From: Lucinisca nassula
Lineage: Eukaryota; Mollusca; Bivalvia; Lucinida; Lucinidae
Direction of reading: 5' to 3'
Assembly: GCA_963580285.1 (NCBI GenBank)
Contig: OY757024.1
Location: forward strand, 126,666,045 to 126,730,044
Length of the DNA: 64,000 bases
In this document: in pieces, positions 21,892 to 64,000 of the stretch
Numbering within the stretch: position 1 is the first letter of the stretch
Layout of the letters: each line of letters starts with the position of its first letter
The notes under the pieces: model-generated
Databases searched by the model: none
What the model saw: the letters and a program-made list of their open reading frames with translations, nothing else
Told to the model about the DNA's origin: nothing
Translations under genes and position numbers: made by a program

Positions 21892-21926
21892 TAATATGCA
21901 TATAAATTTATTTGTGTTTTGCAGCA

Positions 21927-24509
21927 ATGGCGAAATCAAAGGCAGAAAGAATGAAAGCATACAGAGCTAAAAAGAAGGCCCAGTTGGGAGATGGGTGGCT
22001 TTTGCAAGAAAGGCAAAGGGTTAAGAAGTATTACCAACGCACGGAAGATCTCAGCAGGGCTGAAAAACAGCGGAGAAGGGAGAAAGTGCGACAACAAGTA
22101 CGCCGACATAGACAGACGGAGAAAGACTCTGTTGAGGTTGAAACACAAAGTTCATTCTCGGCTTCAATTATCGAAGATGAGCACGGAGTTTCTAGCACAA
22201 TAAGTAGTACACCAGTAACAAGACCTAAACTGATAGTCAAGCTTCCTTCGACTTCAAGAGCAAAGACAATGAAAAAACGCAACGCTAAAGCATTAGCAAA
22301 GGCTTATAGAAAAATAAAATCATTAGAAGAGAAAAATACTAGTCTTAAAAAGAAACTAAATGCTGAAGCACAACGTCGATCACGCGAGAAGAAGAAGAAA
22401 TCACTGACTAGCACACCAAGCGGAAAAGTTGCCAATCTTATGAGAAGTGCTGGGATCAGTCCAAGAAAGTCAGAAACTATAAGACAAAAGTTAATGTTTG
22501 CTGAGTGTATGACAAGTGAGATTCAGCAATCTATACAAAGTAATCCAGAGAAAAGCAACGTTATCTCCAAAATTGTGTCTGGTAAAACGATAAAGAAATA
22601 CCGACTCTTAAGTACGTTACAGAAATCCAGCGGAATTAGCCAGAGACAGCTTAGAAGGAGTATAAAACTGGGAGAGTCTAAAACTATAAACATGACTAAG
22701 AAATTTGCAAAATATAGGCAAACAAAAGCGCAGTGTCTGAAGCAGAAAACCGCTACAGATATATTAAATTTTATGGAAAGAGACGATAACTCGCGGATGC
22801 TACCAGGAAAGGCAGATGCCGGTAAAGATAACATTCAAAAAAGAGTACTAAACGATTACTTGCACAACCTGCATGTAAAGTATCAAGCTGAGAGTAGCTA
22901 CAAAGTTTCATACGCGACTTTCTGCAAGTATAGACCAAAACACATAAATCTGGTAAATTTTGTTTCGCGTCTCAGTTGTTTATGTCAGAAACATCAAAAC
23001 TTTGCATTGAAGCTGCGTTGTATGAAAGCTCTAGGACTAGATACATGTACAAGCCCTGACAAATTTGTTGAAGTAAACAGGGATAATGGCATCGATGAAT
23101 TGCTTTCTGGTATCGCGGATGACAACATAGAGTTCTCAGAATGGAAGAGAGTTAAATGTCAGGATGGGAAAGAAAGGATGAAAATAGTAAAAGTTGGCGT
23201 GTCCAAAGATGACTTTAAAGTAGCAGTAAAAGATCAGTTCGAACAGTTTATTGAGCACGTCGATAGAGTTAAAGTCCAGTATTCTGCTATACGTACAATG
23301 AAAGAAACTCTGCCCAACACACATGCACTAATTCAAATGGACTTCGCAGAGAATTATACATGTCAGACGAGAGAAGATGTTATGAGTGCGTACTGGAACC
23401 AAACAAGTGTAACTCTGCATCCTGCGATTGCGTATTACAAGTCACCTGAAGGAACCCTACAACATTTGAGTCATGTATACGTGTCAGATGTACTTCACCA
23501 TAATAGCGCTATGGTGCTTGCTGTGCTACAGAAGCTGTTGCCATCACTGAAAACCGTTCTTCCTGGTTTGACGCATGTGCACATCTGGACCGATTCCCCG
23601 ACTTCCCAATATAGAAATAGGGTCATATTTGATACAGTCGATCAGTTACAAGATCAGTTTGGATTAATTGCATCGTGGCACTATTTTGAATGCGGTCACG
23701 GCAAAGGACCATGTGATGGCGTAGGCGGGACTACAAAACGCAATGCAGACAATGCTGTAAAGCAAGGCAAGGCCGAAATACAGGACGCCACAGACTTCTT
23801 TGCCTGGGCTTGTTCTGAGACAAATTCACAGATCAACTACACGTACATAACGAATGAAGAATACTCAGAGAAAAAAGCGTATGTTGACGAAAGGAACAAA
23901 AACGTAAAACCAATCAAAGGGACAATGAAACTGCACGCCGTAGCATCGTCTGAAATGCGGCGTGAAATAATTACTAGAACAACTACATGTGTATGTTCAC
24001 AATGTTTCAGTGAGAACGGGTTCAACTCCAATTCACTTTGTGGTTGGCAAAAACAGAATTTGCAACGAGATCAGGATGGCAAAAATGATGCCACAGTGAT
24101 AAACGATGCCGCAGTAGATGAAATTCAGCCGCTCATAGACGACCAAAGGCGACAAATAATTGAAATGAGGGCACAGAAGAAAAAGTCTAAAGTTGATGAT
24201 GAGAATGATGAAAATTTAGCAACAGGAAATGGAGTTCAAAGTGAAGTACATTGCTCTGCTATAAATTCTCTTAAGCCAGGAAATTTTGTTAAAGCATTAT
24301 ACGATAACCATGTGTATGTAGGCAAACTTGTAGATGTCTGCGAAGATGAAGTAACGGTTACATTTATGGAGGAATGTGGTAAGGTTGAAGGTTGCTATAA
24401 ATGGCCTTCACCACCCGATGAGCTGACGATACCCGTTTCAGACATCGTTAAAACCATTAATGAACCTGTACCTACTGGAAAGAGCAAGCGATTCTTTAAG
24501 TTTCAATAA
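21927..24509 (+). CDS. Transposase-like protein with RNase H-like DDE-type core, 860 aa, intact
   Basis: An uninterrupted 860-residue frame. The start chosen is ATG 21927 (MAKSKAERMKAYRAKKK), which directly follows a 3' splice-site-like tttgtgttttgcag; the frame stays open back to a TTG at 21912, so an upstream exon is possible. Residues 1-70 are a very basic helix-rich region and about 116-160 a Lys/Glu-rich coiled coil. C351, C353, H356 and C365 form a CxCxxH zinc-like cluster. The core has acidic residues in MDFAENY (D472) and HIWTDSP (D556), then HGKGPCDGVGG (H591, D597). A CxCxxC group (C688, C690, C693, with C705) follows, and residues 782-860 resemble a Tudor/SH3-like barrel. I know this arrangement from uncharacterised proteins in fish, cnidarians and molluscs. 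The DDE-transposase reading is inference from the acidic motifs and the flanking inverted sites. AATAAA overlaps the stop codon. Domestication as a host gene is the alternative. Confidence 0.8.
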   Translation: MAKSKAERMKAYRAKKKAQLGDGWLLQERQRVKKYYQRTEDLSRAEKQRRREKVRQQVRRHRQTEKDSVEVETQSSFSASIIEDEHGVSSTISSTPVTRPKLIVKLPSTSRAKTMKKRNAKALAKAYRKIKSLEEKNTSLKKKLNAEAQRRSREKKKKSLTSTPSGKVANLMRSAGISPRKSETIRQKLMFAECMTSEIQQSIQSNPEKSNVISKIVSGKTIKKYRLLSTLQKSSGISQRQLRRSIKLGESKTINMTKKFAKYRQTKAQCLKQKTATDILNFMERDDNSRMLPGKADAGKDNIQKRVLNDYLHNLHVKYQAESSYKVSYATFCKYRPKHINLVNFVSRLSCLCQKHQNFALKLRCMKALGLDTCTSPDKFVEVNRDNGIDELLSGIADDNIEFSEWKRVKCQDGKERMKIVKVGVSKDDFKVAVKDQFEQFIEHVDRVKVQYSAIRTMKETLPNTHALIQMDFAENYTCQTREDVMSAYWNQTSVTLHPAIAYYKSPEGTLQHLSHVYVSDVLHHNSAMVLAVLQKLLPSLKTVLPGLTHVHIWTDSPTSQYRNRVIFDTVDQLQDQFGLIASWHYFECGHGKGPCDGVGGTTKRNADNAVKQGKAEIQDATDFFAWACSETNSQINYTYITNEEYSEKKAYVDERNKNVKPIKGTMKLHAVASSEMRREIITRTTTCVCSQCFSENGFNSNSLCGWQKQNLQRDQDGKNDATVINDAAVDEIQPLIDDQRRQIIEMRAQKKKSKVDDENDENLATGNGVQSEVHCSAINSLKPGNFVKALYDNHVYVGKLVDVCEDEVTVTFMEECGKVEGCYKWPSPPDELTIPVSDIVKTINEPVPTGKSKRFFKFQ

Positions 24510-28369: not shown

Positions 28370-28830
28370 TTCAGCTGAATTTTATGGAACGCCTCAACTA
28401 TCTTATGTCGAGATATGACGTCATGTTCTGTTGACATGTATGTTATGTTCATATTCATTACATATTGTTTGTTTATTATGTTGTCTTGTTTGTTTGTCAT
28501 GTTATTGTGTTAACTTGTCATCTTAATAGCTTCCACTTAAGTTATATATATTCTGTCCAAAAAATGTCATGACTGGTCAATTTGTGATGCTGTTTTGTGA
28601 ACTGGTCATCCTGTTTACTTCAATAACAATAGTATAAATTCACAGAACGATTTTGTCTGGTCACTTTGTAATATACGTAGTTAACTCGTCATCCTGTTTG
28701 CTTCAAGTGAAGTATTATTATATCAAAAAATCGTTATATTTCGTCAGTTTGTAATGATGACTTGTAAACCCGCCATTCCATTGTCTTCAGTGGTAATTTT
28801 ATGTCAGAAAAGAAATATATCTGCTAAGTT
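28370..28830. repeat. Left arm of a long inverted repeat (foldback-like)
   Basis: Starts ttatggaacgcctcaact and runs through atgtcgagatatgacgtc and cattacatattgtttgttt. Its inverse complement is in two blocks at 41450-41690 and 40425-40766. Inside the arm is a degenerate ~85 bp tandem theme (ctggtcac...aactcgtcatcctgtttgctt), as in foldback elements whose arms are built of tandem repeats. Confidence 0.65.
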
Positions 28831-29076
28831 GGCAATGTTGTCGAATTAAACCATCACTGTATTATTTCAGTTGATCGTTTCATGCTGTTGAAAACTCATT
28901 ATGTTGTTGTGACCTATATCTGGTAAAATCCAGTACCACCCAGTCACTTCGGCCTCAGTCGTTTCGGCCAAGTTAGGTTATCCGTTTTCATCCATATTAC
29001 TGTCCCGCTCTTGGATGTAGTTTTGATTTTCAGTAGGGTAGGATAGGGGGTTCCATGCAAAACTGGCACTCTCGTA

Positions 29077-37012: not shown

Positions 37013-37170
37013 CTAGTAAAGTAGTAGAAGTAGCAGCAGTAGAAGTACTAGAAGTCGTAGTAATATTAGTAGTAGTAGTAATAGCAGTAGAAGTTGTAGT
37101 AATAGCAGTAGTAGTAGCAGTAGACTTAGTAGTAGTAGTAGCAGTAGCAGTAGTAGTGGCAGCGGAAGTT

Positions 37171-37217
<47 letters not shown>

Positions 37218-37424
37218 CGAGGTATTAGTATTAGTAGAAAAAGTAGTAGTAGAAAAAGGAGTAGTAGTAGTAGTAGAAGTAGTAGTAGTAGTAGTAGCAG
37301 TAGTAGTAGTAGCCTTTCTAGCAGTAGAACCATGCGACCTAATCTGTTTCTGAAAGCCCCGATGGGTGGGGCACAGAAAATTGCAGCGGTAGTAGTAGTA
37401 GTAGCAGCAGCAGTAGTAGTAGTT

Positions 37425-37476
<52 letters not shown>

Positions 37477-38205
37477 CGCTAGCAGTAGTAATAGCTACAG
37501 CAGTAGTTAAAGTAGTAGAAGTAGCAGTTTAAGTAGTTGTAGTAGTAGTATTAGTAGATAGTAGTAGCAGTAGTGGTAGTAGTAGAAGTAGGATTAGTAG
37601 TAGAATGAGCATAGCAGTAGTAATAGTATTACGGTTAGTAGTAGTAGTAGTAGCCTTTGAAGTAGTAGTAGTAGTAGTAGACTAGTAGTATTCGTAGCAG
37701 TGGCAGCAGCAGCAGAAGTAGTAGAAGTAGCAGTAATAATATTGGTAATAGCAACAGCAGCAAGAGTAGTAGCAGCGATTGTAGATATAATAATAATAGT
37801 AGTTGTAGTAGTAATAGTAGTAGTCGTAGTAGTAGCAGTAGCAGCAGCAGCAGTAATATAAGTAGTAGCAGTAGCTGTAATAATATTAGTGATAGCAACA
37901 GCAGCGACAGTAGCAGTTGTTGTATCAGTAGTAGCGGTTGTAGTAACAGTAGTATTAGTAGTAGTAGAAGTAGTAGGAGCAGCAGCAGCGGCTGTAGTAG
38001 CAACAGTACTTGTGGTAGTGGTAGAAGTAGTAGTAGCTCTAGCAGTAGTAGTAGTAGCCTTTGTAGTAGTAGAACCATGCAATCTTATGTTTCTCAAAGC
38101 CCACATGGGTGGGGGCGAAGAGTGGCAGCAACAGCAGTAGTAGTAGCAGTAGTTTAAATAATAGAAGTTGTAGTTTAAGTAGTAGCAGTAGTTGTTGTAA
38201 TAGTA

Positions 38206-38257
<52 letters not shown>

Positions 38258-38770
38258 CAGTAGTAGTAGAAGTATAGCAGTAGTAATATAAGGACACATA
38301 ATAATAGTTACATTTGAAGAAGTAGTAATAGGAGTAATAGTAGAAGTAGCAGCAGCAGCAGCAGCAGAAGAAGCAGTAGTTGTAGCAGCAGTAATAAAAT
38401 TAGTAGTAGCTACAGCAGCAGTAGTAGTAGTAGTTGCATTAGTGGAAGCAGCGGTTGTACTAATAATAATAATGACACCTGCAGCAACAGTAGTGGTGGT
38501 AATATTGCTAGATGTAGTAGTGATAGTAGTAGTTGTAACAGTAGTGCTAATAATAGTAGCAGCATTAGTAGTAATGGTCGAAGTAGGCATTGTAGTAATA
38601 CAACCTTGCATCCAAATCTGTTTCTCAAAGCCCTGATGGGTGAGGGCAGAAAGAGCATCAGCAGTAGTATTAGCAACATTAGCTGTAGCAGTATTAGTAA
38701 TAGTAGTAGTAGCAGTAGTGGTAGTGGTGGTGGTGGTGGTGGTGGTTTTGGTGGTGGTATTGTCAATATA
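37013..38770. repeat. 1.75 kb imperfect (TAG/AGC)n array with a recurring SINE-tail module
   Basis: Almost entirely tag, agc, aga and tgt triplets. Three copies of the module accatgcaaycta...tctgtttctcaaagcccc...gatgggtgggg interrupt it at about 37330, 38070 and 38605. All long frames here, on both strands and in several registers, are low-complexity poly-Val, poly-Leu or poly-Thr and are artefacts. Confidence 0.9.
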
Positions 38771-38788
38771 AATTTTTGAAGAAGAAGT

Positions 38789-39123
38789 GTGTGTGTGAAT
38801 TCGGGTTTAACGTCGCTTTCAACAATTTTTCGGTCATATCACGACGGTGTCTGGTTGCGACAGGGAGCTCAAAAATTCTGCTCACTTTTATAGTGCTGCC
38901 TCACTGACGCATCATGTCCCAGACACATTACATGATACCACATCGAGTCACATTATCCTGACACTGGGTCGACCAGTCCTAGCTCTACCCCGTAAAACTG
39001 AGTGCCAAGGGAGGAGCAGCTAGTACCATTCTTAACGACTTTGGTATGTCGCGGCCCGTGATCGAACCCATGACCTCCCGTTCCCCGGAGCGGACACTCT
39101 ACCAACTGAGCTATCGGGGCCGG
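38789..39123 (-). mobile_element. tRNA-derived SINE (family C), minus strand, with 16 bp target duplication
   Basis: Flanked by tttttgaagaagaagt at 38773-38788 and 39124-39139. The minus-strand head is CCCCGATAGCTCAGTTGGTA with B-box GGTTCGATC; the 3' tail is (CA)n. Other copies are at 41821-42185 and 62672-62987. Inserted in the trinucleotide array, which resumes until about 39255. Confidence 0.9.
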
Positions 39124-39439
39124 TTTTTGAAGAAGAAGTAGCAGAAGAAGTAGTAAAAGCATCTGCATTAGCAGTACTAGGAGCTGTAGTAGTCGTAGTA
39201 GTAGTAGTAGATATAGTAGTAGTAGTAGTAGCAGTAGTAGTAGTAGTAGTAGTAGAAGAAGAAGAGTGGTGGTTAAACTCGCCAGTCGAAGCGATATTCA
39301 TCAAAACTTAATAAGTTAAGATGACAATATAACAAAGTGAGGAGATATAAGGATTTTCTTAAATATGTTCTATAAAAGGGTTATCCTTTGGAAGCAAGGA
39401 ATACAACACAGAACTGAAAAATATGGAGTGTATATGTTT

Positions 39440-39493
39440 TCTGGGCCAGACTAGCTAGTTTCGGCCAATTAGGCCTCATCAGTGACCCTCAGA
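39440..39493 (-). ncRNA. Type I hammerhead ribozyme, unit 1
   Basis: Minus strand: CTGATGA (39476-39482), stem II GGCC-taatt-GGCC (39463-39475), GAAA (39459-39462), tiny stem III from the palindrome CTAGCTAG (39451-39458), then the cleavage triplet GUC with the cut after position 39449. Stem I pairs U39448-A39483, G-C, G-U and three C-G pairs, then three more pairs after a 2-nt bulge. Every conserved core base is present. Confidence 0.85.
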
Positions 39494-39700
39494 TATTTTC
39501 AAAATTCCACAATGGAATCAATGGTCCCAAAGGACAAGAAAATATAATCTACACTATGATGTAGGGCAGGGAGACGTTTTACCGCCGCAACACATTCCCA
39601 CACACCAGCTGTAGTGAAGTTAAATATGTTCTATAAAAGGGTTATCCTTTGGAAGCAAGGAATACACCACAGAACTGAAAAATATGGAGTGTATATGTTT

Positions 39701-39754
39701 TCTGGGCCAGACTAGCTAGTTTCGGCCAATTAGGCCTCATCAGTGACCCTCAGA
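39701..39754 (-). ncRNA. Type I hammerhead ribozyme, unit 2
   Basis: Identical core to unit 1, offset by 261 bp. Confidence 0.85.
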
Positions 39755-39961
39755 TATTTTCAAAATTCCACAATGGAATCAATGGTCCCAAAGGACAAGA
39801 AAATATAATCTACACTATGATGTAGGGCAGGGAGACGTTTTACCGCCGCCACACATTCCCACACACCAGCTGTAGTGAAGTTAAATATGTTCTATAAAAG
39901 GGTTATCCTTTGGAAGCAAGGAATACACCACAGAACTGAAAAATATGGAGTGTATATGTTT

Positions 39962-40015
39962 TCTGGGCCAGACTAGCTAGTTTCGGCCAATTAGGCCTCA
40001 TCAGTGACCCTCAGA
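39962..40015 (-). ncRNA. Type I hammerhead ribozyme, unit 3
   Basis: Identical core. One substitution (cagac for cagat) just outside the stem I pairs. Confidence 0.85.
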
Positions 40016-40222
40016 CATTTTCAAAATTCCACAATGGAATCAATGGTCCCAAAGGACAATAAAATATAATCTACACTATGATGTAGGGCAGGGAGACGTT
40101 TTACCGCCGCCACACATTCCCACACACCAGCTGTAGTGAAGTTAAATATGTTCTATAAAAGGGTTATCCTTTGGAAGCAAGGAATACACCACAGAACTGA
40201 AATATATGGAGTGTATATGTTT

Positions 40223-40276
40223 TCTGGGCCAGACTAGCTAGTTTCGGCCAATTAGGCCTCATCAGTGACCCTCAGA
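40223..40276 (-). ncRNA. Type I hammerhead ribozyme, unit 4
   Basis: Identical core to unit 1, offset by 783 bp. Confidence 0.85.
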
Positions 40277-40424
40277 TATTTTCAAAATTCCACAATGGAA
40301 TCAATGGTCCCAAAGGACAAGAAAATATAATCTACACTATGATGTAGGGCAGGGAGACGTTTTACCGCCGCCACACATTCCCACACACCAGCTGTAGTGA
40401 AGTTAAATATGTTAAAGAATGAAA

Positions 40425-40766
40425 ATGCACATGAAGTCAATATATAATGACGAGTTAACTAGACAGCGTTACTAATGGATCAGACGATTTTCTAAAAAAA
40501 AAATATAACTACACTTTAAGCCAACACAATGACGATCTTACTAGATAGCATAACTAACTGATAGGAAATAACGATTTTTTGACAGACTGTTACTCCACTT
40601 GAAGCAAACAGGATGACGAGTTAACTGCGTATATTAAAACGTGTTCAGACAAAATCATTTTCTGACATTATACTATTGTTATTGAAGTAAGTAGGATTAC
40701 CAGTTCACAAAACAGCACCGCAAATCGACCAGACAACTTATTTTCTGAGATAACAGTATTCATTTG
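40425..40766. repeat. Right foldback arm, inner part
   Basis: Inverse-complement relative of 28500-28830, including aagcaaacaggatgacgagtt against aactcgtcatcctgtttgctt. Interrupted on its outer side by the 316 bp element. Confidence 0.6.
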
Positions 40767-41080
40767 AAAAGTAGAAGTAAAACAAAGATCAGAATTGATA
40801 CAATTAACTTACTCCACCCATAAAAGACACCAAAGGGAAAGAAATACAAACATTAAGCGACCATACCATAATGGAAACCTAAACAAAGGAAGGCCATAAG
40901 GACAGTTACTTTCCCACAAAATGGCCATATGGCCATCCAAAACAAACAGACACAAGTGATACACACAGTAAGTAACAAACAACAACACAAATAAATCGCC
41001 ACAGAAGAGCCGCCTTGGAACGGTCAGTGGAAGATTTCCACTGGCGGGCTTAAATCGATTTTACGTGGCCACAATCCTCG
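40767..41080 (+). mobile_element. 316 bp interspersed element, copy outside the array
   Basis: 314 bp, very close to 3795-4110, with the same ends (aaaagtagaagtaaaac and ccacaatcctcg). Confidence 0.85.
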
Positions 41081-41690: not shown

Positions 41691-41820
41691 TTATCAAATC
41701 AAAATTCTCCTGTACATACAGAGCATCCCAGTGATTGGTTAGTGACATATGGAAAATGATAATGGACGGCCAGCAATATTATCAGCTTAGAGGATCTTAC
41801 ATGAGTCTTCGTGTATTGTC

Positions 41821-42131
41821 CCCGATAGCTCAGTTGGTAGAGTGTCCGCTCCGGGGAACGGAGGTCACGGATTAGATCCCGGGCCGCGACATACTAAAGT
41901 CGTTAAAAATGGTACTAGCTGATCCTCGCTTAGCACTCTGATTTACGGGGTAGGGCTAGGACTGGTCGACCCAGTGACTGGATAATGTGACTGGGTGTGG
42001 TATCATGTAATGTGTCTGGGACATGATACTTCAGTGAGGCAGCACTATAAAAGTGAGCATTGGGCTCCCTGTCGCAACCAGACACCGTCGTGATATGACT
42101 TAAAAATTGTTGAAAGCGACGTTAAACCCGA

Positions 42132-42185
<54 letters not shown>
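41821..42185 (+). mobile_element. tRNA-derived SINE (family C), plus strand, with 18 bp target duplication
   Basis: Flanks gagtcttcgtgtattgtc (41803-41820) and gagtcatcgtgtattgtc (42186-42203) differ at one base. A-box TAGCTCAGTTGGTAGAG; the B-box is decayed (ggattagatcc). It ends in a (CA)n tail at about 42135-42185. Confidence 0.9.
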
Positions 42186-51876: not shown

Positions 51877-52018
51877 CCATCACGAAAACACGCCTATATA
51901 ATTTTGACCCCATTGAACCTCACTTTTACATAGTAAAACTGGGGTTTCCAGGGGTAAACCTTGTTTTTCTTATTTCTGCTCTAAAATGTAGATTGTGAGT
52001 ACTCGTTAGATCCGCCTC
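51877..52018 (-). mobile_element. Half of a family H element, cut at the palindrome apex
   Basis: Begins ccatcacgaaaacacgcc and stops at ctcgttagatccgcctcg, the centre of the family's main palindrome. The Polinton-derived block starts within about 10 bp. Confidence 0.7.
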
Positions 52019-52027
52019 GGTCACGGC

Positions 52028-52976
52028 GGTCCCTGGAACTTGATGAAGTCAGACACGAGGGAAGTTGTCAGCATCGATATGAAGACCTGCTATCTGGCAT
52101 CCTTCCTGGGCATGAGTGAAGCCAAACTATAATTCGAGCGGAGCGGACACCCAACCGGGCCACCGGATGGTCCGTGTAGCCATCGATGCGCTCTCCCCTA
52201 AGACATAGGCACAGGCTTCGCCGAGATTCAAAAATGGGAGTTTGATGTAGCTTGCCATCCTGTCATCCCTGCCTGGTTCGGGAAGCATTTCGCCTCCGAA
52301 AGCGGTGTTTGGGCACAGACACAGCTCCTTGCCTTTCTCATAGAGTCTGGCTTGCTGAAGAGCCTCAAGGTTCGGGAAGCCATCATCGCCTTTAAGAAGC
52401 AAACCGATGTGTGGCTCCCAGAAGACCGTGACCAAGGCTGAAGTTTTACCGGCAAGTTCACCCAGGGCGCCAAAGCTGTCAGCCTAGCTGGCGGCAAAAG
52501 ACTGACACGAAGGCTTGTGACTGACCAGGGAAAACTAGACTTCCTCGTGCGAGACACCCGCAGAAGTGGCACTCTTGTCGGAGCTCCCGACAGGTGCCCT
52601 CTAGGCTATGTTCTCACGTATTATGATGGCTCCCAACCACAGTACGCTCACCTCAGGGTCTCGATGTTCGCATATGGCCATATCAACCTAATCTCCATGC
52701 TTTCAAAGTTTAAACCCGATGAGGCCGCCCGAGTGGCAAGCGATTTCCATCTATGTAAAGAAAACGGCACTCTGTAAGCTAGATTGATTCGGGGCCTTTA
52801 AGCCTCATGAGGTGCATCCAAAAGGATATTGCCGCATCTGTCTCACCCGGCACGACAAGGCAACCCAGAGGCCCCCACGAGATGGGATTGCCGCAGCTCA
52901 GTGGCGTGACAAGGGTGAACAGCTCTTCATGCCACTGTGGCATGCGGTCTACGTCCCCGACCCTGAGTGCGGAGCA
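52028..52976 (+). pseudogene. polB: Polinton DNA polymerase B, C-terminal remnant
   Basis: Family B polymerases of Polintons copy the element from a protein primer. The remnant opens with SIDMKTCYLASF (near 52065), which fits palm motif A (DxxSLYP-like). In other frames come a long fingers/thumb-like region and then YAHLRVSMFAYGHINLISM (near 52645), a typical region before motif C. The motif C position reads RVASDFHL (near 52730) instead of the expected TDS, so a catalytic Asp is lost. The N-terminal half (terminal-protein and exonuclease regions) is absent. At least three frameshifts, and a 316 bp element is inserted right after. Dead. Confidence 0.75.
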
Positions 52977-53302
52977 AAATAGAAGTGGAGGCAATGGTCA
53001 GGAATCGATACAATCAACCCACAACTCCCACCAGAGACACCAAAGGGAAAGAAACACAAACATGAAACAACAGACCTAATGGAAACGTCAATAGCGGAAA
53101 GCCACGAGGACAGTTACTTTCCCACAAAATGGCCAATAGGCTATCCAAAATAAAATAATATAAGCAACACAAACGCCCAAAGGCAAACCATAACAAAACA
53201 ATCCGCGTCTGAAGAACCGCCTTGGAACGGTCAGCGGAAACGAATTCCACAGGGGGGTGGGGCGGCAGGGCTTAAATCGATTTTACATGGCCACAATCCT
53301 CG
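52977..53302 (+). mobile_element. 316 bp interspersed element inserted in the Polinton
   Basis: Diverged copy from agaagtggaggcaatgg to ccacaatcctcg. It separates the polymerase from the helicase remnant. Confidence 0.8.
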
Positions 53303-54300
53303 AGTATCAAAGACGTGCCCGATAAAACCGCGCCACCCTATGACGATCTCCCGATTTGACATCAGCTGAGCTACCTAAACGGCGGCGGGGGCAGTGGCAG
53401 GACCACCCGAGCGATCGAGCTATTCCGCGAGAAAAACCCGCTCGTTTGTACCCCAACCCATCGCCTAGCCAAAGCGATGTTGGCCAGAGGGGTCAAGGCC
53501 CAAACCTACCACTCGTTCCTCCGCTGGAGTGGTCAGACCGAGTGGACCCCAGAAAGGATGGAGCAGAAGTACGTTCCCCGTTCTAGGATGAATTCGCACT
53601 GTGCTCCGGTCTGTGTTGGAGACTTCCTCGACTGACTCGATGGTAGAGGAGCCCGGTCGTTTGCTGTGGCGACCAAGGTCAGCCACCTCCGATCGCGGCA
53701 GAGATGTCGCACGACTAGCTGCAGCGAAGAGCCGATTAATATGAAGAGGTCCTTGTCGACCACATGCAAAAGAACCGACCATGAAAGCTCTTAAAAGGGC
53801 GATCCTTCTCCAACCAGCCGAGTACAGTGTCGGACTATGAGACAAGCGCTACCGGCTTGCCTTGGATGGGACAAATTCGTGGAAGCTTGGAAGCCGGCGG
53901 ACTTGATCCTGACCTCGAGGCAGAAGGTTCGCGACCGGGCCGAGGTGCAGCTGTTCGAGAGCCATGAGAAGCATTTCCCCGCTTCCCCGTTCCTCTGCTA
54001 TTTCTCTATTCCTCTGCAGGCCAGGCCAACAGGAGCTCGTTCTGAACGACGTTATCCAGGTTTCCTTGCAAACCGCACGCGAGGTCCTCGACGGCAAGTG
54101 GGGCCAGGGCAGGGCTCTTTGCTATGCCATCACAGTCCACTCAAGCCAGTGTCTCACCATCGCAGACCCCCAAAACGTCTGGATTATCGATGACTTCCTG
54201 CAGTGGTCCAATCTCGCATATTTGGCAGCGTCAAGGGTGGAGTACATGCACCAGCTCGAGAGGTTAGAGGAGGGTTCTGAGGGGCCACCCATACTCACCG
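53303..54300 (+). pseudogene. Polinton-associated SF1 helicase remnant
   Basis: An ATP-dependent DNA helicase-like module, probably for element replication. The Walker A region reads NGGGGSGRTTRAIELFRE (near 53378-53431); Arg replaces the invariant Lys. It is followed by CTPTHRLAKAMLARGVKAQT and SFLRWSG (near 53440-53530). Much further on is a C-terminal motif stretch TVHSSQCLTIADP (near 54130; Cys for the usual Gly) and YLAASRVEYMHQLER (near 54220). Frameshifts lie between. It sits just after the polymerase on the same strand and leads into the HNH segment. Confidence 0.7.
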
Positions 54301-54600
54301 AGCAGCAGCTCCGCAAGGCTATTGCGAAGAAGTTTTGTGGCCCACAAGCGACAAAACCAAGCCAAGGGGCCCGGTTTAACCTGAAGGTTGTTCAAATCTT
54401 AGAACTCAAGGAGGCACAGAACAATCACTGTACCGTGTGCGATATTGAGCTCCTATGGGCTTAGCAATCAAAGTACACCCAGCATTTCAGCGTTGCCCGG
54501 TTAGACAATTCCGTGGGTAACGTCCGCGACAACATCAGGCTGACCTGCCTCGAGTGCAACCGGAAAATAGGAGCGGCTGCGCTCAGCGCTTGAGAACCCC
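54301..54600 (+). pseudogene. HNH endonuclease-like domain remnant, C-terminal to the helicase
   Basis: HNH domains cut DNA with a single metal ion. Here EAQNNHCTVCDIELLWA (54412-54463) gives the first CxxC pair; after a stop and frame change, VRDNIRLTCLECN (near 54520-54560) gives the second CxxC and the DN-x-LTC segment typical of HNH zinc-ribbon types. It is in line with the helicase and may have been one polyprotein with it. Inactive as it stands. Confidence 0.65.
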
Positions 54601-55600
54601 ACCCGGAGGAAGCTGAGTGTCCGGTGGCACAACAAGGAGTTCCTCGCGCACAAAGCCGTGCTGAGGTCCATCCTGCAAGTAATAAACCACGATCTCGTCG
54701 GGCTTTGTCACTGAGCGCCCGAGCCGATGCACATCCAGGGACCATACGGGATCAGTCGCTCGCCGGCGACCCACCCCCCCCCCCCCCCCCCACTTCAAGC
54801 TCACCAGGTTGGTACAAATAGCGAACTCAGACGCCCGAGGGGAGTTTTGTCACCTCGAGACCAACAGGACGACCAGGAACTACAAAGGAGAGTTTTACTT
54901 CTACTTTTTATGTGTGCTGCGGAGCAGCATTTTAGCCCTTATAGCCTCAGAAGGCTTTTTGCTGGTCAGTCGGGTGAACTCGCCATTCAAAATAGAAGTG
55001 GAGTGCCACAACGGCAGGCAACCTTTTCACCCACTCTGTAGACCTCTGACCAGAAGTGAGTCGCATCTCCTGAGCGTACTGGTGCCCAAAGAGCCGCTCA
55101 GCAAAGGTACGATTGAAGCGCTCAACAATACCCTAGTCTCGATGGATGTCAACCCGACCGCGCCGAACCTGGACAGAGTGCTTTGCTAGCTGCTGGCTGA
55201 CAAAGCCCATGAACTCGAGGCCGGGGTCAACAAGGAGCAATTTGGGCCACCTCAACGGGCTTTGCCAATAGATGCGAGACAAAGCTTCAGCAACCTCTTT
55301 GGCTTCCTTAGTGGCCAGAGGCTCAGCTTCTTTGTAGCGTGAGGCTACATCAACCACGTTAAGGGTGTATTTGTATGTGCGCTTGTTCGGAAAGCGAACA
55401 CGGGCGTGCGGCAGAATGATGGAACTCGTTCGGCGTGATGATATCGAATTTTGGTCGTGGAATATGCCGCGGGGCGGCTAGGTAGATCTGCCAGATGGCC
55501 GGCTTCTTCAACCAAGCTCGGGCCACATCTTCTGAGGTCTTAAGCGCAGAAGCCTGCTTCTTTATGCCTCAAGACCCATCCAGTAATCCTTAGGGCTGTA
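54583..55600 (-). pseudogene. Polinton integrase (retroviral-type), decayed
   Basis: The enzyme joins element ends to target DNA. On the minus strand, VVDVASRYKEAEPL (near 55350, first Asp) and LLLVDPGLEFMG (near 55235, second Asp) fit the rve core. The third acidic residue lies in GIVERFNRTFAERLFG (Glu codon 55121-55123), but an in-frame TAG at 55133-55135 precedes it. The C-terminal SH3-like part, including VWSLDVHRLGR and VYYLQDGPQHGFVREE, is open at 54583-54804. The N-terminal region up to about 55600 is frameshifted. A poly(C) tract at 54775-54790 breaks the frame. Confidence 0.8.
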
Positions 55601-56275
55601 ATAAATATCCGCGGATGTTCAACTTCCGATCCATGTATTTATTGTTGTCGTTGCTTTGCAACGGGTAAGGCTCTAACGAAAACAACTGCTGCGGATTCGT
55701 AGGCCACAAGGCCGGGCGTGTCCCACATCGATGCCACAGACGACTGTGCTATGGTAGAGCGCGTTGACAAGCATTTTACCATCAGTTGCCGGGGTTGTCA
55801 TGGTTGCCTATTCCATATAGAATGGATCTGGTCTGGTCTCTAATTGTTTCACGCCCCGGGATTTATCCTGTTGCGGCTCCGCTGATAACTTCCTATTCGA
55901 CTTGTCATGGCCATCACTGTTGCTCTGCAACAACGACGAAGCGTCTTGTCGGCGCGATAGGCTCACTGCAACAGTAATGCCACCCACAAGACAACCCCCG
56001 ATGATCCATGGGGTTCAGGCTCGTTGTCCTTCTGGCAGATTACCGTAATGTTCCTGTCGTTGTTGCTGATGTTGCTCTGATACAACGGCGGCAACATCGT
56101 TAACGGCGCCTTCGTCATTCGTGACGATGTTTTTCTTGGGTTTCCTGAAGCTCCTTGGGCAGTCGTTCTTGCTTGGCCTTTCGACCAGCGGCGCCGACAC
56201 GACCGCCCGCGGCCTTTTTCGGGTCTTTAGTCTTCGTCAATGTCACTCTTTCCGTTACTGGCTCCGCCAGTGGCT
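55601..56275. other. Polinton intergenic or decayed region with palindromes
   Basis: No convincing gene. It holds copies of the GTTGCTCTGCAACAAC-type palindrome at 55644-55665, 55919-55934 and 56071-56086. Minus-strand frames at 56015-56200 may be a broken C-terminal continuation of the next gene. Confidence 0.5.
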
Positions 56276-56686
56276 TTACAGCGAGTTGCAGCGTCCGGCT
56301 GCTGATCCTTCCCCGCCATCATCGTATTTTTTGCCAACATTGTATGATGAATTGATGGGGCAGCAATGTTCAAATATGGCATGCTTGAGAGTGATAAACG
56401 TTGCAGTGAGCGGAGCTAACCACATGCCATAGCGGTGATAGAGCTCGCTGACAGCGACTTGAAGTACACTACCTAGAAACGGATCGCTTTCAAGATCGCG
56501 AATGAGCCCTTGTTGGTCCGGGATCGGGAAGAACATCCCGACCAGTCCCGCATACAGCTCGAGAACCGCGTTCGAAATCGTTCTTGACATGTCTGCCCCT
56601 AATTGGGCGGAGTAACGGGCGAAGAGCCTCTCGACCTCAGAGGCACTCAGCTCCTGGTCGACGGTCAAGGCCTTTCGGTGAGCCAA
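56276..56686 (-). CDS. Polinton-associated protein of unknown function, 136 aa
   Basis: A 136-codon frame starting MAHRKALTVDQELSASEVER, predicted helical, without transmembrane segments. It lies on the minus strand, like the ATPase and capsid genes downstream, and has palindromes on both sides (56071 and 56761). I recognise it only as resembling an uncharacterised Polinton-linked protein, and the N-terminal lysine/acidic helix gives no function. It may be truncated at the C-terminus. Confidence 0.45.
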   Translation of the reverse strand: MAHRKALTVDQELSASEVERLFARYSAQLGADMSRTISNAVLELYAGLVGMFFPIPDQQGLIRDLESDPFLGSVLQVAVSELYHRYGMWLAPLTATFITLKHAIFEHCCPINSSYNVGKKYDDGGEGSAAGRCNSL

Positions 56687-57092
56687 AGTTCCGTATTTCC
56701 TGGCCGACCCTCCTGCTACTGTTGCAGCGAGCCTTTCGCGGTATTCTTTTTCCGTGGCCCTTGTTGTTGCTCTGCAACATGCGTCGCAGCCGTGTCTGGC
56801 GCCGCCGGGTCGTCCAGCATATGGTCTATCAGCTAGTCACGGTCCATTCTTTAGCAACAAGGGCGGACCTGTCAAAAATGGAGTCGCAGGCATGCGCATA
56901 CATGCGCTGCGAACATCTGGATGTGCCTTATCAACCGGGAAAAGATAAAAAACAGCGAAAAGCAGCGCCACATGCAGGCCATGTACAGCGATTACGGCCG
57001 CCTCTGAGCACATAGTTGTTGTTGTTGCTACGAAACTGCTTCACAACGGCTAAGCAACAGCGGCAATATTAATCACGTAATATTTATAAAAA
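56687..57092. other. Polinton intergenic region with palindromes
   Basis: GTTGTTGCTCTGCAACA at 56763-56779 and a longer gttgttgttgttgctac...caacggctaagcaacag structure at 57014-57060. Opposite-strand frames here look like shadows. Confidence 0.5.
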
Positions 57093-57747
57093 TCAATACA
57101 TGGAAATATTATCAGCGGGCTGATCAGTCTTCAACAGAAGCTTAGCGTGTTTTGTCTCGGCTAGCTGCTGCCGCACCAACTCCCGTACTCGTGCGGGCAT
57201 CACGTCACTTTCACGCAGACAGCCTTCGAACGAGTCACGATCCTTGCAGTGCAACAAACAGACACAGCGCGTCTTCTCGCGCAAGTCTTTCAAGACGGAG
57301 TTGTATTTCTGCGTAAGGATCCGGACCCAGACAGACTGCTCCGCGTGGCGGCCCGGGAATGCCAGCTCTGACAGCATATCTTTCTTCTTCGTCAAAGCCC
57401 TCTTAGCGCTGCAGTCGTCTATGATGTATAGGGTCGGCTCGCCCTGGAACACCCGGTAAAACGCTCGCAAGTCATCGTGAAGGCGCTCACCAGGGTCTAG
57501 AACGTAAATCTCAGGGTCCGTCCAGATTCAGGGGCGCTGCTGATACGTCCTGTTGTGCCGTATGGTGGGGCACAGAGCACTACGTGTTGAAATAACTCCC
57601 GGTAGGGGCCTTCGAGCAGATCGAGGGAAAAAACGGGTTTTCCGATAACGTATGCCCAATGATTGTCGCCAAATGGGCCGTGCGCGGTAGGAACTCTTTA
57701 AACCGTTCCTCTGGAAGATTAATAAACCGCTGAGAGGAACCGGCCAT
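57093..57747 (-). pseudogene. Polinton packaging ATPase (A32/FtsK-HerA type), decayed
   Basis: The enzyme would pump DNA into capsids. The likely start is MAGSSQRFINLPEERF at 57747, overlapping the end of the capsid gene by 29 bp. An intact C-terminal frame (57470-57093) has a clear Walker B, LYIIDDCSA (near 57408-57434), followed by KRALTKKKDMLSELAFPGRH, a region shared by these ATPases. Between, near 57480-57590, the frame is broken and a proper Walker A is not visible. Confidence 0.7.
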
Positions 57748-59011
57748 CTTCGATGTTAAGCTGTGCATTCATGATGACGTAGAGGTAGATGTTCAATGCG
57801 CCAGACGCCTCGGCGTTTTTCGTTATCTGGATGGTCACACCTTCGCTGGCATTCTCATTCCGCCTGCCGGAGCCGTAGAGTCTGTCGTCGTCGCTTATCC
57901 TGAGGTCAAGCCACAACGCGTACTTGTCGGTGAGGTATTCTGCAAGGCTGACGTCGACTAGGGCAATGTCTTTTTCGAGCGTTGCCACTTCAGGATGTCG
58001 CTTGCTGCCGGCTGCGAAGAGCTTCCTCGCTTCATCAAACATTTGGTAAGAGCGCATCCCTTGCCTGAAGAGTTGGCTGGGGATCCCCTCGATGGCGACC
58101 TCGACCTTGTGGATTTTCGGGCTATATAAGGCCTCAGTATCGCGAGTGAAGAGCTGTTGCGCATCCTCAAAGAGCACCATGATGCCCTTCATGCTGCGGG
58201 CGGGCACGTTGAGAATGATATTCCAGAGAGTATCGCTCTTGTCTTTGCCGATTTTGCGTTGCCGCAGTACACGGTCATTCAAGATCGCAACGCGGCCTCT
58301 GTACTGGTTGTTGATTATTTGGGCCAGCTCTGGCAGAATGACCATGTCATACCCAAGGCAGATGTTTCCAGTGTCGAAAGAGGCACCTCCGCCTGTGGCC
58401 TTGACTACCCGGTCGTAGTCGTTGAACGTGAGCTCATACACGAGCCGGTCGCCCAGCGCGCCCTGGTAGAATGGCATGCGGCTCTCGATCAGCTTGAAGT
58501 CCAATGGGATGTAGAAGCGATTGCCGAAGGCATCGGCGACGGCTTTTTCCGCTAGAACGGACTCGTCTTTGTAACCAGCATTGATTCGGATCCTCGTCGT
58601 ATTTCGGTTAGCCGACGTAGCAATGCCTTGTTACTGGCCATTTTTCCTCTCCGAAGCCGTCCTCCAGAGATCGCAGTAGCAGTGGTACACGTCACTGTCG
58701 TTGATGCCAAGGACCTCGATCCCCGAAATTTTAATGTCGGTCTTTTTCACTAGGGCGCCTAGGTGTTGAACCAATGTCCGATTGGCATCTCCGACGTTGT
58801 GCAGCGTGATCGTGAAGGCCGACATCGCGGTCCCGGGGACGATGACATCATGTTGGCCGAGGTTTGGGAATCGAACCAGAAGCTGCGGGTTCGGGCCGAT
58901 CGTGCTGGGGCTGTTAGTAATCGTCACCGATTGCCTTACCCCTTTCACCCCAAGGGGTTCGCGGAGGCACCGGTAGGGTTTAAGCTTCCGTCCGTACTTG
59001 CTTGATGACAT
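57719..59011 (-). pseudogene. Polinton major capsid protein (double jelly-roll), split by frameshift
   Basis: The structural protein of a predicted icosahedral capsid, related to F54H12.2-type proteins in animal genomes. The N-terminal frame (59011-58631, 126 aa) has LLVRFPNLGQHDVIVPG and DSDVYHCYCDLWRTASER. The C-terminal frame (58504-57719, 261 aa) has GDRLVYELTFNDY, LNVPARSMKGIMVLFED, VEVAIEGIPSQLF and NIYLYVIMNAQLNIEDGRF. Together about 430 residues, near the expected size, with a break at about 58505-58630. Both halves are well kept. The gene order ATPase-MCP matches other Polintons. Confidence 0.85.
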
Positions 59012-59080
59012 GGTGTCACCTACACTCGATAAAATCTGTTTTAAACACGCGCGACTACCTTCAAATGTATTTCACAAAAT

Positions 59081-59464
59081 ATGGCTGACTTTGAAAACCC
59101 CATGTTCGAAGACTGGTCCGACCCTTATGATGTCGCAAACGATGACGCGTTCGACCTGCCCGACGCTGTTATTGACCTACCGATGGAAGTCGAGGAAGGG
59201 CTATGCGCGGCCGAGGACAATATTCAGAACCTGCGAGGCGAGTTAAGACGGACAGCATTTTCGGACCAGAAGAGACACCTGGTCGATACTTTCTACAAAG
59301 AAGTGAGTAATGCCTACAAGGGGTTGCGCCCCGAAGGTAGTATCGACTATGACCAGTTTGGGATTGAAGACGACGGAAAAACACTCTACTGGAACCCGGC
59401 GACAAAAAGATTCCTATCACCGCGACATAAGGAGGATTCCGGATTCTGGCTCTGTCAACGCTGA
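59081..59464 (+). CDS. Polinton-associated acidic protein, 127 aa
   Basis: An intact frame starting MADFENPMFEDWSDPYDVAN, strongly acidic in its first 50 residues, then a basic/aromatic half (YWNPATKRFLSPRHKED). It is divergent from the capsid gene with a 69 bp gap, suggesting a shared bidirectional promoter. Function unknown; it resembles small Polinton virion-associated proteins only by position. Confidence 0.55.
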   Translation: MADFENPMFEDWSDPYDVANDDAFDLPDAVIDLPMEVEEGLCAAEDNIQNLRGELRRTAFSDQKRHLVDTFYKEVSNAYKGLRPEGSIDYDQFGIEDDGKTLYWNPATKRFLSPRHKEDSGFWLCQR

Positions 59465-59485
59465 CCTTTAAATATGGAACAGGCG

Positions 59486-60457
59486 GCAAAATGCAATTCG
59501 GCAATCACTGGGGCTCCCAGACTATAAATCGAATATACCGCGTTTCAGAAAAGAGGCTGTGGAAAGACTCCAGAAAGCAGAGGAAACCCTCCCAAAGCGC
59601 ATTGAGTCCGTCGAGATGACAGAGCTCCCCGGCGTAGCCCACGACGTTATTCTCACAACAGGCGATGTCGCGACCGCATTGAATACAATTGATGATCAGC
59701 CTATCGACACTGCGTGGGTCATCCAGGCCAAAAGAGAGCTTGCTGGGCTTCAATACGCTATGACTCGAACCCGAAACGAGCTCGTGAACAACCTGGCGAA
59801 GCTCTCGGAAGTCGAAAGCCAGAAATCCGAGGCTGAAAAACACTTGGCCGTGGAGCAACAAAAACTGACCGAGACGAACGGCCCCGAGATGCAACGGGGG
59901 ATTTAAGACCGAATCAGAAAGCTAAAGGGCGATCTCTCTGCCATTCAACTTGAAAGACAGTCAAGGCTCGAAGTCATCTCTATGAACAGAGAAGCTCTCC
60001 GGTCCCAGATCACCCGACGTTCACGCGGATTGTTCATGAAGACAAGACGCTGGCTGAGCGAGTTCGGACACTTCCGCGAACAGGGGATAACAATCGTGAA
60101 CATCCTTACAGCGATTGGGATGACAATCATGACCCTAGTGCTTGCGCTCACCGGGGGGGGGGGGTTGAATGTACCGGCGCCGGCTCCCAGGCCATCCGAC
60201 AAGGGCGGGGTCAAGGAGTGGGTAAAAAGCACCTACAGTCCCTCGGGCGTGGCCTTGCCAATTTGGCCGGCAAGGCCGCGGCTGCCCTGCCTGGAATCAT
60301 CGGGTCCATCGTCTCTTGGCTCTTGAACACGCTAGGGAAGGCCGCTTCATGGCTCGCAGATCATTTGTGGGCCTTCGTCATCGGCGTGGGGGCCCTTCTT
60401 CTCGTGGCTGCAAGGGGTTGGCTAGCGAGACCGCGCGACCAACCAAAGCACCACTAA
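59486..60457 (+). pseudogene. Polinton coiled-coil and membrane protein, broken
   Basis: The first segment (to 59906) is a long Lys/Glu/Gln helix (VERLQKAEETLPKRIESVE through EKHLAVEQQKL) that ends in a stop. The next (about 59907-60165) has FREQGITIVNILTAIGMTI and a hydrophobic stretch, then a run of 12 G shifts the frame. The last (60218-60457) has amphipathic repeats GLANLAGKAAAALPGIIGSI and a hydrophobic AFVIGVGALLLVAARG. Proteins with this coiled-coil, Gly-rich linker and C-terminal membrane helix order are common as uncharacterised bivalve proteins. I infer a Polinton membrane or minor virion protein. Confidence 0.6.
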
Positions 60458-60700
60458 GTCAACCCCGATCCCTGCGACTATGAGAGCTGTTATTAATTCT
60501 TCATGGTCGAGACCGGATTTCCAGTCTGCTGGCGCAACTACGGCGGCAGGCGTAGGGTCTTTCGATCGGTCCCGGCTGGTGAGGCAGTTTTCTCCTGGAA
60601 TGTCCTGTCGACTTTAGAGGCAGGATTGATCGGTACTGCCTGGTTTATTCCCGGGTTTTGACCGATGATCGCGTCTCACCTTGCTATTTGGATTTGGTTA
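60458..60700. other. Short spacer between convergent Polinton genes
   Basis: No gene. Confidence 0.4.
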
Positions 60701-61692
60701 TTATAACCTTGGACATTGCCGGGATGGATGGAGTGCCATGTCGCTCGGCATCAAGTACAGCCCTCTCCCGCAGGCGTAATCCAGTGGTGTGGATGCATAT
60801 TGCAACGTCTTTTGATAGCGATCGATGCTGCTGGGGAAGTCGACGGGTGAGGCGATGGCGTCTTCGAGATTCGTCATAAATTGCATTTGAGCGTCGAACC
60901 CCGTCCCGACTTTGAGAATGTTGGAACGTGTCTGAGCTTGCGCTCTCAAGATTGCCCAGAGCTAAGTCCGAATCGAGTCGTTGAGCCGCTCGACACCCGC
61001 TTGCGTGAAGCCTTCTGATTTATCGAGAATGAACATCGTCCACGCCTTTGAAATAGCCCGCTTATGGCGTATGGCGTCCTTCGGGTGAAATAAGAGGCCA
61101 TCGCAGCTGTGATTACTGCAGATTTCCCCGAAGGGGTCATGCAGGTACTTAAAGATCCGAGGCCTTGACACCCGTAGTCCAGCTTTTGCCTCAAATCCGT
61201 AGAAGGCGAAACGGCGAACTCCTCGCAAAGCCGCTTGAAGGTCCTGGAGTCATATTAGTTATCGAACCATGAATGGGACTCGTCCCCAGGGAGGGCGACT
61301 TTTAGCTCCTCAAGCAGACGCCTCGTCGTATAATAGAAATGATAGCAATACATGCTTGCAAGAAGGGGTTCATCCGCTGGGGGATGGTACTGGAATGAAA
61401 CACCACATCCTGCGGTTGCGCACCGAACCTCAAAGTTCAGCTGGCACTGCCACCAGCTGAAGGGGGCGTGCTGCCAGCTGTCCCATGCCTTGTTTGCCAT
61501 AGTGACGTCCCCTGTAAGCGGAGGGTTTTGATAATCGGCGAAGACGTCCGGGAACATGACAAAGAAGTGACTTCCCTTATCGTCGACCCTTAAAGATGAG
61601 ATGGGCAACCCTGTCGCTGACTTCTTTTCTTTGAAATGGCCGCATGCCTGATAATTTACCGAGCTATTAAACGTAAATGCCTTTGTATCCAT
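60701..61692 (-). pseudogene. Conserved Polinton protein of unknown function, frameshifted
   Basis: Start MDTKAFTFNSSVNYQACGHF at 61692; the first frame runs to 61255 (145 aa) with GVSFQYHPPADEPLLASMYC and YTTRRLLEELKVALPGDES. It continues in other frames with KRAISKAWTMFILDKSEGF (near 61040) and AQTRSNILKVGTGFDAQ (near 60930) down to about 60701. About 330 residues in all. I recognise the set of segments as recurring beside Polinton genes in invertebrate genomes; no function is known to me. Divergent from the penton-like gene, with 30 bp between start codons. Confidence 0.6.
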
Positions 61693-61722
61693 GCCAATTT
61701 TTGTGTCGTTGTGTTACACAAT

Positions 61723-62433
61723 ATGTACTTCACGCTCACTGGCGTTAAACATGGTGTGCCAATCAATCTTGCCAGAACCCTGTCTCCGGTTGAGCTAGAG
61801 ATTGCCCTCTGCGAGTTGACGTATTATGACAGGTGGTTCAACATATGCATGACCAAAAAGAACAATAAGGACTCAAACAACCTGACTGAAAAAATAATAC
61901 CTGACGGGTATTATAACGTCTGTGAGTTGAACGAAAAGGTGTTTCAGCGGTTGGACGCCGAACTCACTCTAGATGAACCCTCTGGTCTACTGCAATTAAC
62001 GGTAAAGCTCGGAGAAGCCATTACAATGAATCGCGAATTAGCTAATCTTGTAGGCTTTTCCAACAACACTTTCAGAACTCCTCCCTCAATCCCGACCCGT
62101 TTCAATGGCTTTCACATGGAAGGAAGCCGCTCCAAGACGTTCACTGCAGAGAAGCCACACAAACTGGTCGTCCATCGTGCGGTCTACTTTCACCTTGCTG
62201 AGTTAAGTACTTCAGACAATCTGCATAATGGTCACCCCTCTTCACTGCTTAGATCCATCCCTGTCGAGTACGACAAGTGTGGAGTTGGTAGAACTGAATC
62301 ATTTCCTGTCTTACAGTACAAAAGGTTGTCGTCAGAGCCTATTTCACAACTAACTATTTCACTTAGAGATTCCAACGGGGAGATGTTACCATTCGAGTAT
62401 ATGAGCGCAACCCTACATATAAGGAATGGTTGA
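61723..62433 (+). CDS. Penton-like minor capsid protein of the Polinton, 236 aa, intact
   Basis: The start chosen is ATG 61723 (MYFTLTGVKHGVPINLARTL); the frame is open upstream to 61636, but that would overlap the divergent gene starting at 61692. The chain is rich in beta-type segments, with LAELSTSDNLHNGH and a C-terminal ISQLTISLRDSNGEMLPFEY, the pattern of the single-jelly-roll penton-like proteins of Polintons and adintoviruses. The length is close to the usual ~230-260. It is the only structural gene of the element without a visible break. Its right side abuts an inverted 316 bp element, so the Polinton terminus is lost here. Confidence 0.65.
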   Translation: MYFTLTGVKHGVPINLARTLSPVELEIALCELTYYDRWFNICMTKKNNKDSNNLTEKIIPDGYYNVCELNEKVFQRLDAELTLDEPSGLLQLTVKLGEAITMNRELANLVGFSNNTFRTPPSIPTRFNGFHMEGSRSKTFTAEKPHKLVVHRAVYFHLAELSTSDNLHNGHPSSLLRSIPVEYDKCGVGRTESFPVLQYKRLSSEPISQLTISLRDSNGEMLPFEYMSATLHIRNG

Positions 62434-62445
62434 AGCAAGCGGTCC

Positions 62446-62545
62446 CGAGGATCGTGGCCACGTAGGATAGATTTAAGTCGTAACTTTTACTGACCGTTCC
62501 ATGGCGGTTCCTTTGCTGTGGTTTATTATAGATCGTCTTTGCATG
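62446..62545 (-). mobile_element. 316 bp element, inverse orientation, first part
   Basis: cgaggatcgtggccacgtag through tggcggttcctttgctgtgg; its continuation is at 63146-63240. Confidence 0.7.
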
Positions 62546-62581
62546 TATGAACTGCTAATATATTTTGTTTTGGATAGCGGT

Positions 62582-63554: not shown

Positions 63555-63900
63555 TTGAAGAATGGGAAAATAAAAAAACTTAGGGTCTGCGCTCGAGCAG
63601 GATGCGATATGTCCACTCACCGGGATCTTACGCAAGTGTTCATGTCTGATGTGTTGATTGTGAAGGGTTACGCGATTTCGCAAGATACTTGTTTCGCCGT
63701 TATAGTATTTACCGCAGCCTCGACATTTCATTTTTTCACTGTGCATGTCATGTGCGTATGTACAGAAAGGTTTCTCCTTTAAAGTCGAAAGACGAATCTT
63801 CTTTTTTGTACTTGCAAAGGCCGCATCGTGGCTCTTTACATTTAGTTACTTCTTGTTGTTCACTGCAGCTGGTGTTGTGCCGTGTGGCGGCCGTAAAACG
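63555..63900 (-). pseudogene. GIY-YIG nuclease remnant (Penelope-like element type)
   Basis: Minus-strand frames carry CKEPRCGLCKYKKEDSSFDF (near 63860-63800), a CxxPRCxxC linker. After a frame change come MKCRGCGKYYNGETSILRNR (near 63731-63672) and VTLHNQHIRHEHLRKIPVSG. The order CxxPRCxxC, then CxxCxxxYIGET, then LRxRVxxH is that of the C-terminal endonuclease of Penelope-like retroelements and of related stand-alone genes. The usual YIG reads YNG here. No reverse transcriptase is visible within the window. Broken by a frameshift. Confidence 0.6.
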
Positions 63901-64000
63901 TCTCCCCGTAAATCAACCATAGTGCAGTTTAAATTTTACTTTTGGTCCTTTGAGATCAGTGTGTATATTTTGATAAATAAGAAATAAATTATTGGTTTAG

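Follow-up and report, generated by a model that had tools for sequence, protein, structure and literature searches.

A probable non-LTR retrozyme with four type I hammerhead ribozymes and a palindromic helix III in the genome of Lucinisca nassula

The window analysed here, a stretch of 64,000 nucleotides from the genome of Lucinisca nassula, harbours an array of four 261-bp units, each of which carries a type I hammerhead ribozyme (Table 1). Taken as a whole, the locus probably represents an animal retrozyme of the non-LTR, non-autonomous kind, the transcripts of which would be cut by double hammerheads, closed into circles and inserted by the reverse transcriptase of a helper. By unit size, GC content, type I hammerhead, tandem arrangement and the lack of a frame of at least 75 amino acids, the non-LTR retrozymes are the best-fitting known family. 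The array likely belongs to this described metazoan family, with the published members of which the unit was compared by description only. Through retrozymes, animals have a second source of circular RNAs, of which the locus offers a compact, testable case: four of four cores are intact, a perfect palindrome predicts dimer-favoured cleavage and the insertion site is readable.

Table 1 Features of the array, its insertion site and its diverged relative (positions are those of the window)
Feature	Position	Strand	Remark
Putative retrozyme array	39359..40413	-	4 units x 261 bp and the first 11 bp of a fifth; RNA sense on the minus strand
Type I hammerhead 1	39440..39493	-	predicted cleavage 39449/39448
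Type I hammerhead 2	39701..39754	-	predicted cleavage 39710/39709
Type I hammerhead 3	39962..40015	-	predicted cleavage 39971/39970
Type I hammerhead 4	40223..40276	-	predicted cleavage 40232/40231
Self-complementary helix III arm ACUAGCUAGU	39450..39459 (repeats at +261, +522, +783)	-	can form a 10-bp helix with the arm of a second copy
First predicted complete 261-nt monomer RNA	39449..39709	-	product inferred from cleavage sites
Further predicted complete 261-nt monomers	39710..39970 and 39971..40231	-	products inferred from cleavage sites
TTAAA, array edge	39359..39363		candidate target-site copy or microhomology
TTAAA, opposite array edge	40412..40416		candidate target-site copy or microhomology
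Left part of interrupted degenerate ~83-bp host repeat	39315..39358		aligned stretch
Right part and more copies of degenerate ~83-bp repeat	40414..40765		spacings 82-84 bp
Diverged partial copy of the unit (RNA-sense positions 2 to 124)	63859..63976	+	73-76% identical

Tandem Repeats Finder reported the array with a period of 261, 4.0 copies and 99% matches, and slicing gave four complete units followed by 11 bp that open a fifth, TTAAATATGTT. The four repeats of 261 bp described in an earlier note, which was made from the sequence alone, were thus recovered at the same positions. The majority unit has a GC content of 41.4%, and the array is devoid of coding capacity, as no stop-to-stop frame of at least 75 amino acids overlaps it. 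Over the 1044 bases of the four units we found five differences, at unit positions 48, 62, 136, 180 and 231, each present in a single unit, so that any two units differ at one to four positions. With five singletons, the statement of the note that the spacers have drifted is an overstatement. The note had further taken the identity of the cores as a sign of recent activity or homogenisation. This conclusion does not hold, nor are the unchanged cores evidence of selection on the ribozyme, because five differences would all miss the 54-nt ribozyme (54 of 261 bases) by chance with P = 0.31; any indication of recent activity comes solely from the low divergence of the units.

The array looks like an insertion. 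It appears to interrupt an older, degenerate repeat of ~83 bp, with TTAAA at the junctions, where it could be a target duplication of 5 bp or else 5 nt of microhomology. A related block of this repeat lies in reverse orientation at 28570-28767 (83% identical over 198 bp). The match of the right flank to further copies of the repeat was equalled by none of 1000 shuffles. The left flank (39290-39358) aligned to the block at 28500-29000 with a score of 42, which was reached by one of 1000 shuffles and by none of 376 control pieces; against the nearer copies alone, 95 of 1000 shuffles reached the score of the flank, and its match lacked significance. When the two flanks were joined with two extra bases, which corresponds to a single TTAAA, the alignment to the 28500-29000 block ran gap-free across the junction and gave the highest score (80, next best 79). 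With 0, 1, 2, 3, 5 and 11 extra bases the scores were 74, 77, 80, 79, 77 and 71 against this block, and 62, 65, 68, 67, 61 and 55 against the local copies. In another comparison the joined flanks scored 45 when the 11 bases were included and 52 when they were left out, in both cases above all of 500 shuffles. Aligned to single local copies, they scored best with five extra bases on copy 0 (50) and with two on copy 1 (47). The 11-bp sequence TTAAATATGTT is therefore not favoured as a target duplication (71 and 55 compared with 80 and 68 for one TTAAA), and the lead of the single TTAAA over the next best join is small. A long target-site duplication is absent from the array edges: the candidate measures at most 5 bp, in contrast to the 15 bp given for Nematostella repeats in the portion of PMC4918200 consulted.

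The architecture of the array also has to be weighed against an ordinary short satellite, in which unequal exchange has created or expanded a 261-bp unit on the spot, with a ribozyme that is a legacy of an old retrozyme and plays no role in spreading. The tandem, short and nearly homogeneous units are in agreement with such an origin, as is the richness of the window in other tandem arrays. The 11-bp repeat of the unit start at both array edges fits slippage or exchange as well, and a long target duplication is missing. A satellite does not, however, account readily for an array that interrupts another repeat or for a complete ribozyme retained in four of four units. The restriction of the differences to singletons would suit four units laid down together better than stepwise duplication, which tends toward shared variants, although five differences are few. 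We consider the satellite explanation improbable and retain the retrozyme copy as the preferred reading.

All four units contain an identical, complete type I hammerhead of 54 nt on the minus strand. Its elements follow in the order stem I, CUGAUGA, stem II, GAA, the self-complementary arm ACUAGCUAGU and C. Stem I comprises six base pairs including one G-U, a one-sided bulge of two nucleotides and three more base pairs, and helix I is open; stem II consists of GGCC/GGCC with a 5-nt UAAUU loop. As read from the sequence, the 2-nt GA bulge in helix I and the UAAUU loop in helix II are candidate elements for loop contacts; mussel hammerheads, according to the part of PMC7229834 available to us, likewise lack most of the conserved loop-contact bases. 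The arm of helix III is a perfect palindrome of 10 nt and can form up to three pairs if the closing A-U is counted. Cleavage is predicted after GUC in all four hammerheads. The core, stems and bulge agree in each of the four units with those previously noted on the minus strand, and the cleavage site 39449/39448 given there is the first of the four predicted ones.

How such a ribozyme could act was addressed by structure prediction with programs that take no account of tertiary contacts. In isolation the ribozyme folded no better than shuffled sequence (z -1.0, 26 of 200 shuffles as good), and each helix III pair of the single ribozyme had a probability of about 0.05. Two 54-mers, cofolded without constraints, had as their optimum a double hammerhead in which helix III spans 10 bp and each helix I has six pairs, the three outer ones being absent; its energy of -46.3 kcal/mol compares with 2 x -16.6 kcal/mol for two separate monomers at their optimum. 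Of the three adjacent pairs of units, two were folded as stretches of 522 nt, and both formed the double hammerhead intramolecularly. In the fold of the four-unit transcript it was the outer pair of ribozymes that did so, and the inner two misfolded. The palindrome alone is not proof of dimeric action, because one in 16 tetraloops is expected to be palindromic by chance. For one unit we also folded the circular monomer, in which 67% of the bases were paired and which folded only modestly better than shuffles (z -1.69, 12 of 200 as good). The predicted optimum of this circle hides the ribozyme and, at -67.3 kcal/mol, lies 4.9 kcal/mol below the fold in which helices I and II are enforced (-62.4 kcal/mol).

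From the weak helix III of the single ribozyme, the double hammerhead predicted for the dimer and the ribozyme-hiding optimum of the circle, one would expect the ribozyme to cut in multimers and to be relatively silent in circles. The sections of PMC6155905 drawn on here document dimeric cleavage by the hammerheads of newt and avocado sunblotch viroid, and those of PMC7229834 by axolotl type I hammerheads. Most invertebrate hammerheads cleave as monomers according to an excerpt of PMC7761336, and the text of PMC7229834 at hand likens a helix III of two pairs and a tetraloop to invertebrate hammerheads. Helix III of the array may belong with this invertebrate type, according to whether its closing A-U is taken as a pair, and this would speak against the dimer reading.

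The folds and the insertion site are compatible with the following cycle. Multimeric RNA would arise by read-through of the minus strand, and in it adjacent units would pair their palindromic helix III arms and adopt the predicted double hammerhead, which presumably cuts at the GUC sites. Cutting would free 261-nt monomers, three whole ones from the array locus, and a host RNA ligase would close them into circles, as assumed from the described retrozyme family. In a monomer circle the ribozyme would be without a partner, its helix III very weak and its sequence hidden by the predicted fold, all of which should make the circle fairly stable. A helper reverse transcriptase, encoded by a Penelope-like element or a LINE, would then copy the circle for several rounds and insert the multimer at TTAAA in the ~83-bp repeat. 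We infer this last step of repeated copying and insertion from the site of insertion and from differences that are all singletons. Penelope-like elements are the helpers proposed for retrozymes.

Metazoan non-LTR retrozymes were described in 2020 (Cervera and de la Pena, PMC7229834), and the following comparison refers to the portions of that paper available to us. These elements are short tandem repeats of low GC content (<45-50%) with type I hammerheads and circles of ~170-400 nt; their units measure ~150-450 bp and occur as dimers to multimers, with a target duplication of >4 bp when present. Further traits of the family are the lack of LTRs, primer-binding site and polypurine tract, a stable circular monomer with extensive self-pairing, and dispersal in many genomic copies. 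Retrozymes of coral, mussel and axolotl were tested. The array agrees with this description in its one type I hammerhead per unit, its short tandem organisation and its lack of a frame of at least 75 amino acids, and stands apart in the perfect 10-nt palindromic helix III arm and in a candidate target duplication of merely 5 bp. A weak helix III is common to the array, which is predicted to act as a double hammerhead, and to the dimer-acting satellite retrozymes of newt and axolotl as portrayed in the excerpts at hand. The axolotl units, however, are given there as 330 and 350 bp with one or two helix III pairs, compared with 261 bp in the array, where helix III can have as many as three pairs; axolotl Amex1 (PMC7229834) has a palindromic tetraloop like that of the array but a single helix III pair. 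Plant LTR retrozymes, in the section of PMC4918200 we refer to, resemble the element proposed here in being non-coding, flanked by ribozymes and dependent on a circular RNA intermediate. They differ from it by type III hammerheads, circles of 600-800 nt, LTRs and target duplications of 4 bp.

The hammerheads of Penelope-like elements and Terminons are type I and in tandem, as in the array, and in Penelope-like elements they reside in tandem pseudo-LTRs (PMC11167929 and PMC7761336, in the parts available). This resemblance raises the question whether the four hammerheads belong to the pseudo-LTRs of an autonomous retroelement, of which the array would be a fragment. We regard this origin as highly improbable. 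Such hammerheads sit in elements with a reverse transcriptase and are usually minimal and without helix III (PMC6155905, same limitation), whereas the arm in the array can form three pairs, and a unit of 261 bp is too short to accommodate a reverse transcriptase. Moreover, a Pfam scan of 10 of the 46 frames of at least 75 amino acids listed for 26.5-52 kb revealed neither a reverse transcriptase nor a GIY-YIG domain; the same scan gave two weak matches below cut-off to other families, both in one frame.

A diverged relative of the unit is present near the end of the window (Table 1), with E values of 7e-13 to 3e-11 against the four units. Its homology begins 12 nt inside the RNA-sense 5' edge of the array and ends just before unit position 127, where the ribozyme starts; a looser alignment extends to position 126. 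A 23-nt island, TGTGGCGGCNGTAAAACGTCTCC, the pattern of which was taken from the alignment of relative and unit, is exact in the relative and in three of the four units and carries one change in the fourth. This island had no match in collections of viral contigs and of genome contigs. An Rfam search of 63700-64000, which covers the roughly 20 bases of the window beyond the homology, found no ribozyme in the diverged copy up to E = 1. The relative may be a decayed copy, its ribozyme may lie past the window end at 64000, or it may represent a different element with a common module.

A bolder combination of these observations is conceivable, though we hold it doubtful. The palindromic helix III would make the ribozyme multimer-dependent, active as an intramolecular double hammerhead and off in the unit circle, and the half-unit of the relative with its 23-nt island would be a separate conserved module, for helper recognition or as a promoter, common to elements with and without a ribozyme. 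What blocks the ribozyme within retrozyme circles is left open in the text of PMC7229834 accessible to us; if true, multimer dependence would explain, for such an element, how the circles escape their own ribozyme.

Support for the motif itself came from a descriptor with fixed core letters, a contiguous stem I of at least 5 bp, stem II of at least 3 bp and stem III of at least 2 bp, applied to both strands. It retrieved four sites in the whole window, which are the four array hammerheads, and none in 200 dinucleotide shuffles. By this descriptor the 64-kb window contains no further ribozyme-bearing copy, and the plus strand of the array has no ribozyme of its own as would be found in a symmetric, viroid-like arrangement. 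The covariance-model search suggested in the earlier note gave only sub-threshold matches, none of the Rfam hammerhead families (clan CL00010) reaching its gathering cut-off. Near the array the best of these was RF00008 on one unit with 22.1 bits (gathering 48.5, E 0.1), and the remaining three units matched RF02275 with 17.6 bits (gathering 52, E 0.44). A search of the whole window gave RF00008 as the sole hammerhead match (E = 4.1), and a 111-base search gave RF02275 at E = 0.03 and RAGATH-1 at E = 0.19. We suppose that the low scores arise from poorly modelled short helix III and compact loops. As an exact pattern the ribozyme core had no match in viral contigs, and the array had none among phages; these negatives, like those for the 23-nt island, say little on animals, because the collections consist of viral, bacterial and archaeal sequence. 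The animal retrozyme proposed in the earlier note is partly supported, by type I core, unit size, low GC content, tandem order, lack of a frame and insertion-like position, although the Rfam cut-off was missed and the argument from identical cores fails. That a hammerhead-like sequence arose by chance or a repeat was misassembled would fit the missing Rfam match at gathering level, but is scarcely credible in view of the empty whole-window shuffles, the five differing positions, which show that the units are not one copied read-stretch, and the diverged relative elsewhere in the window.

Several other features of the window were recorded. Region 123-8977 is a long tandem repeat with an identical 166-aa frame present four times (at 123, 2697, 5587 and 8477, spacings 2574, 2890 and 2890 bp), and three sites within it, 2890 bp apart, share 97% identity with 40765-41080. 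An 867-aa open frame at 21906-24509 matched no Pfam family at E up to 0.01. The GC content rises to 52-54% between 52 and 62 kb, and 51877-63408 has many frames on both strands. This segment may be a mobile or virus-like element of large size; a 142-bp direct repeat (51877-52018 and 63267-63408, 85%) has relatives elsewhere in the window, and nine frames in 53.9-62.4 kb gave no Pfam family at E up to 0.01. A partial tRNA match at 10490-10547 (32.4 bits, Rfam cut-off 29), not called by ARAGORN in the bacterial setting, is possibly a tRNA-derived repeat. An interspersed repeat at 38787-39119, part of which appears tRNA-like by eye, is probably a SINE and has copies at 41820-42154 (inverted) and 62668-62968 that are 90-93% identical. 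A degenerate AGT trinucleotide repeat of ~1.4 kb occupies 37020-38434.
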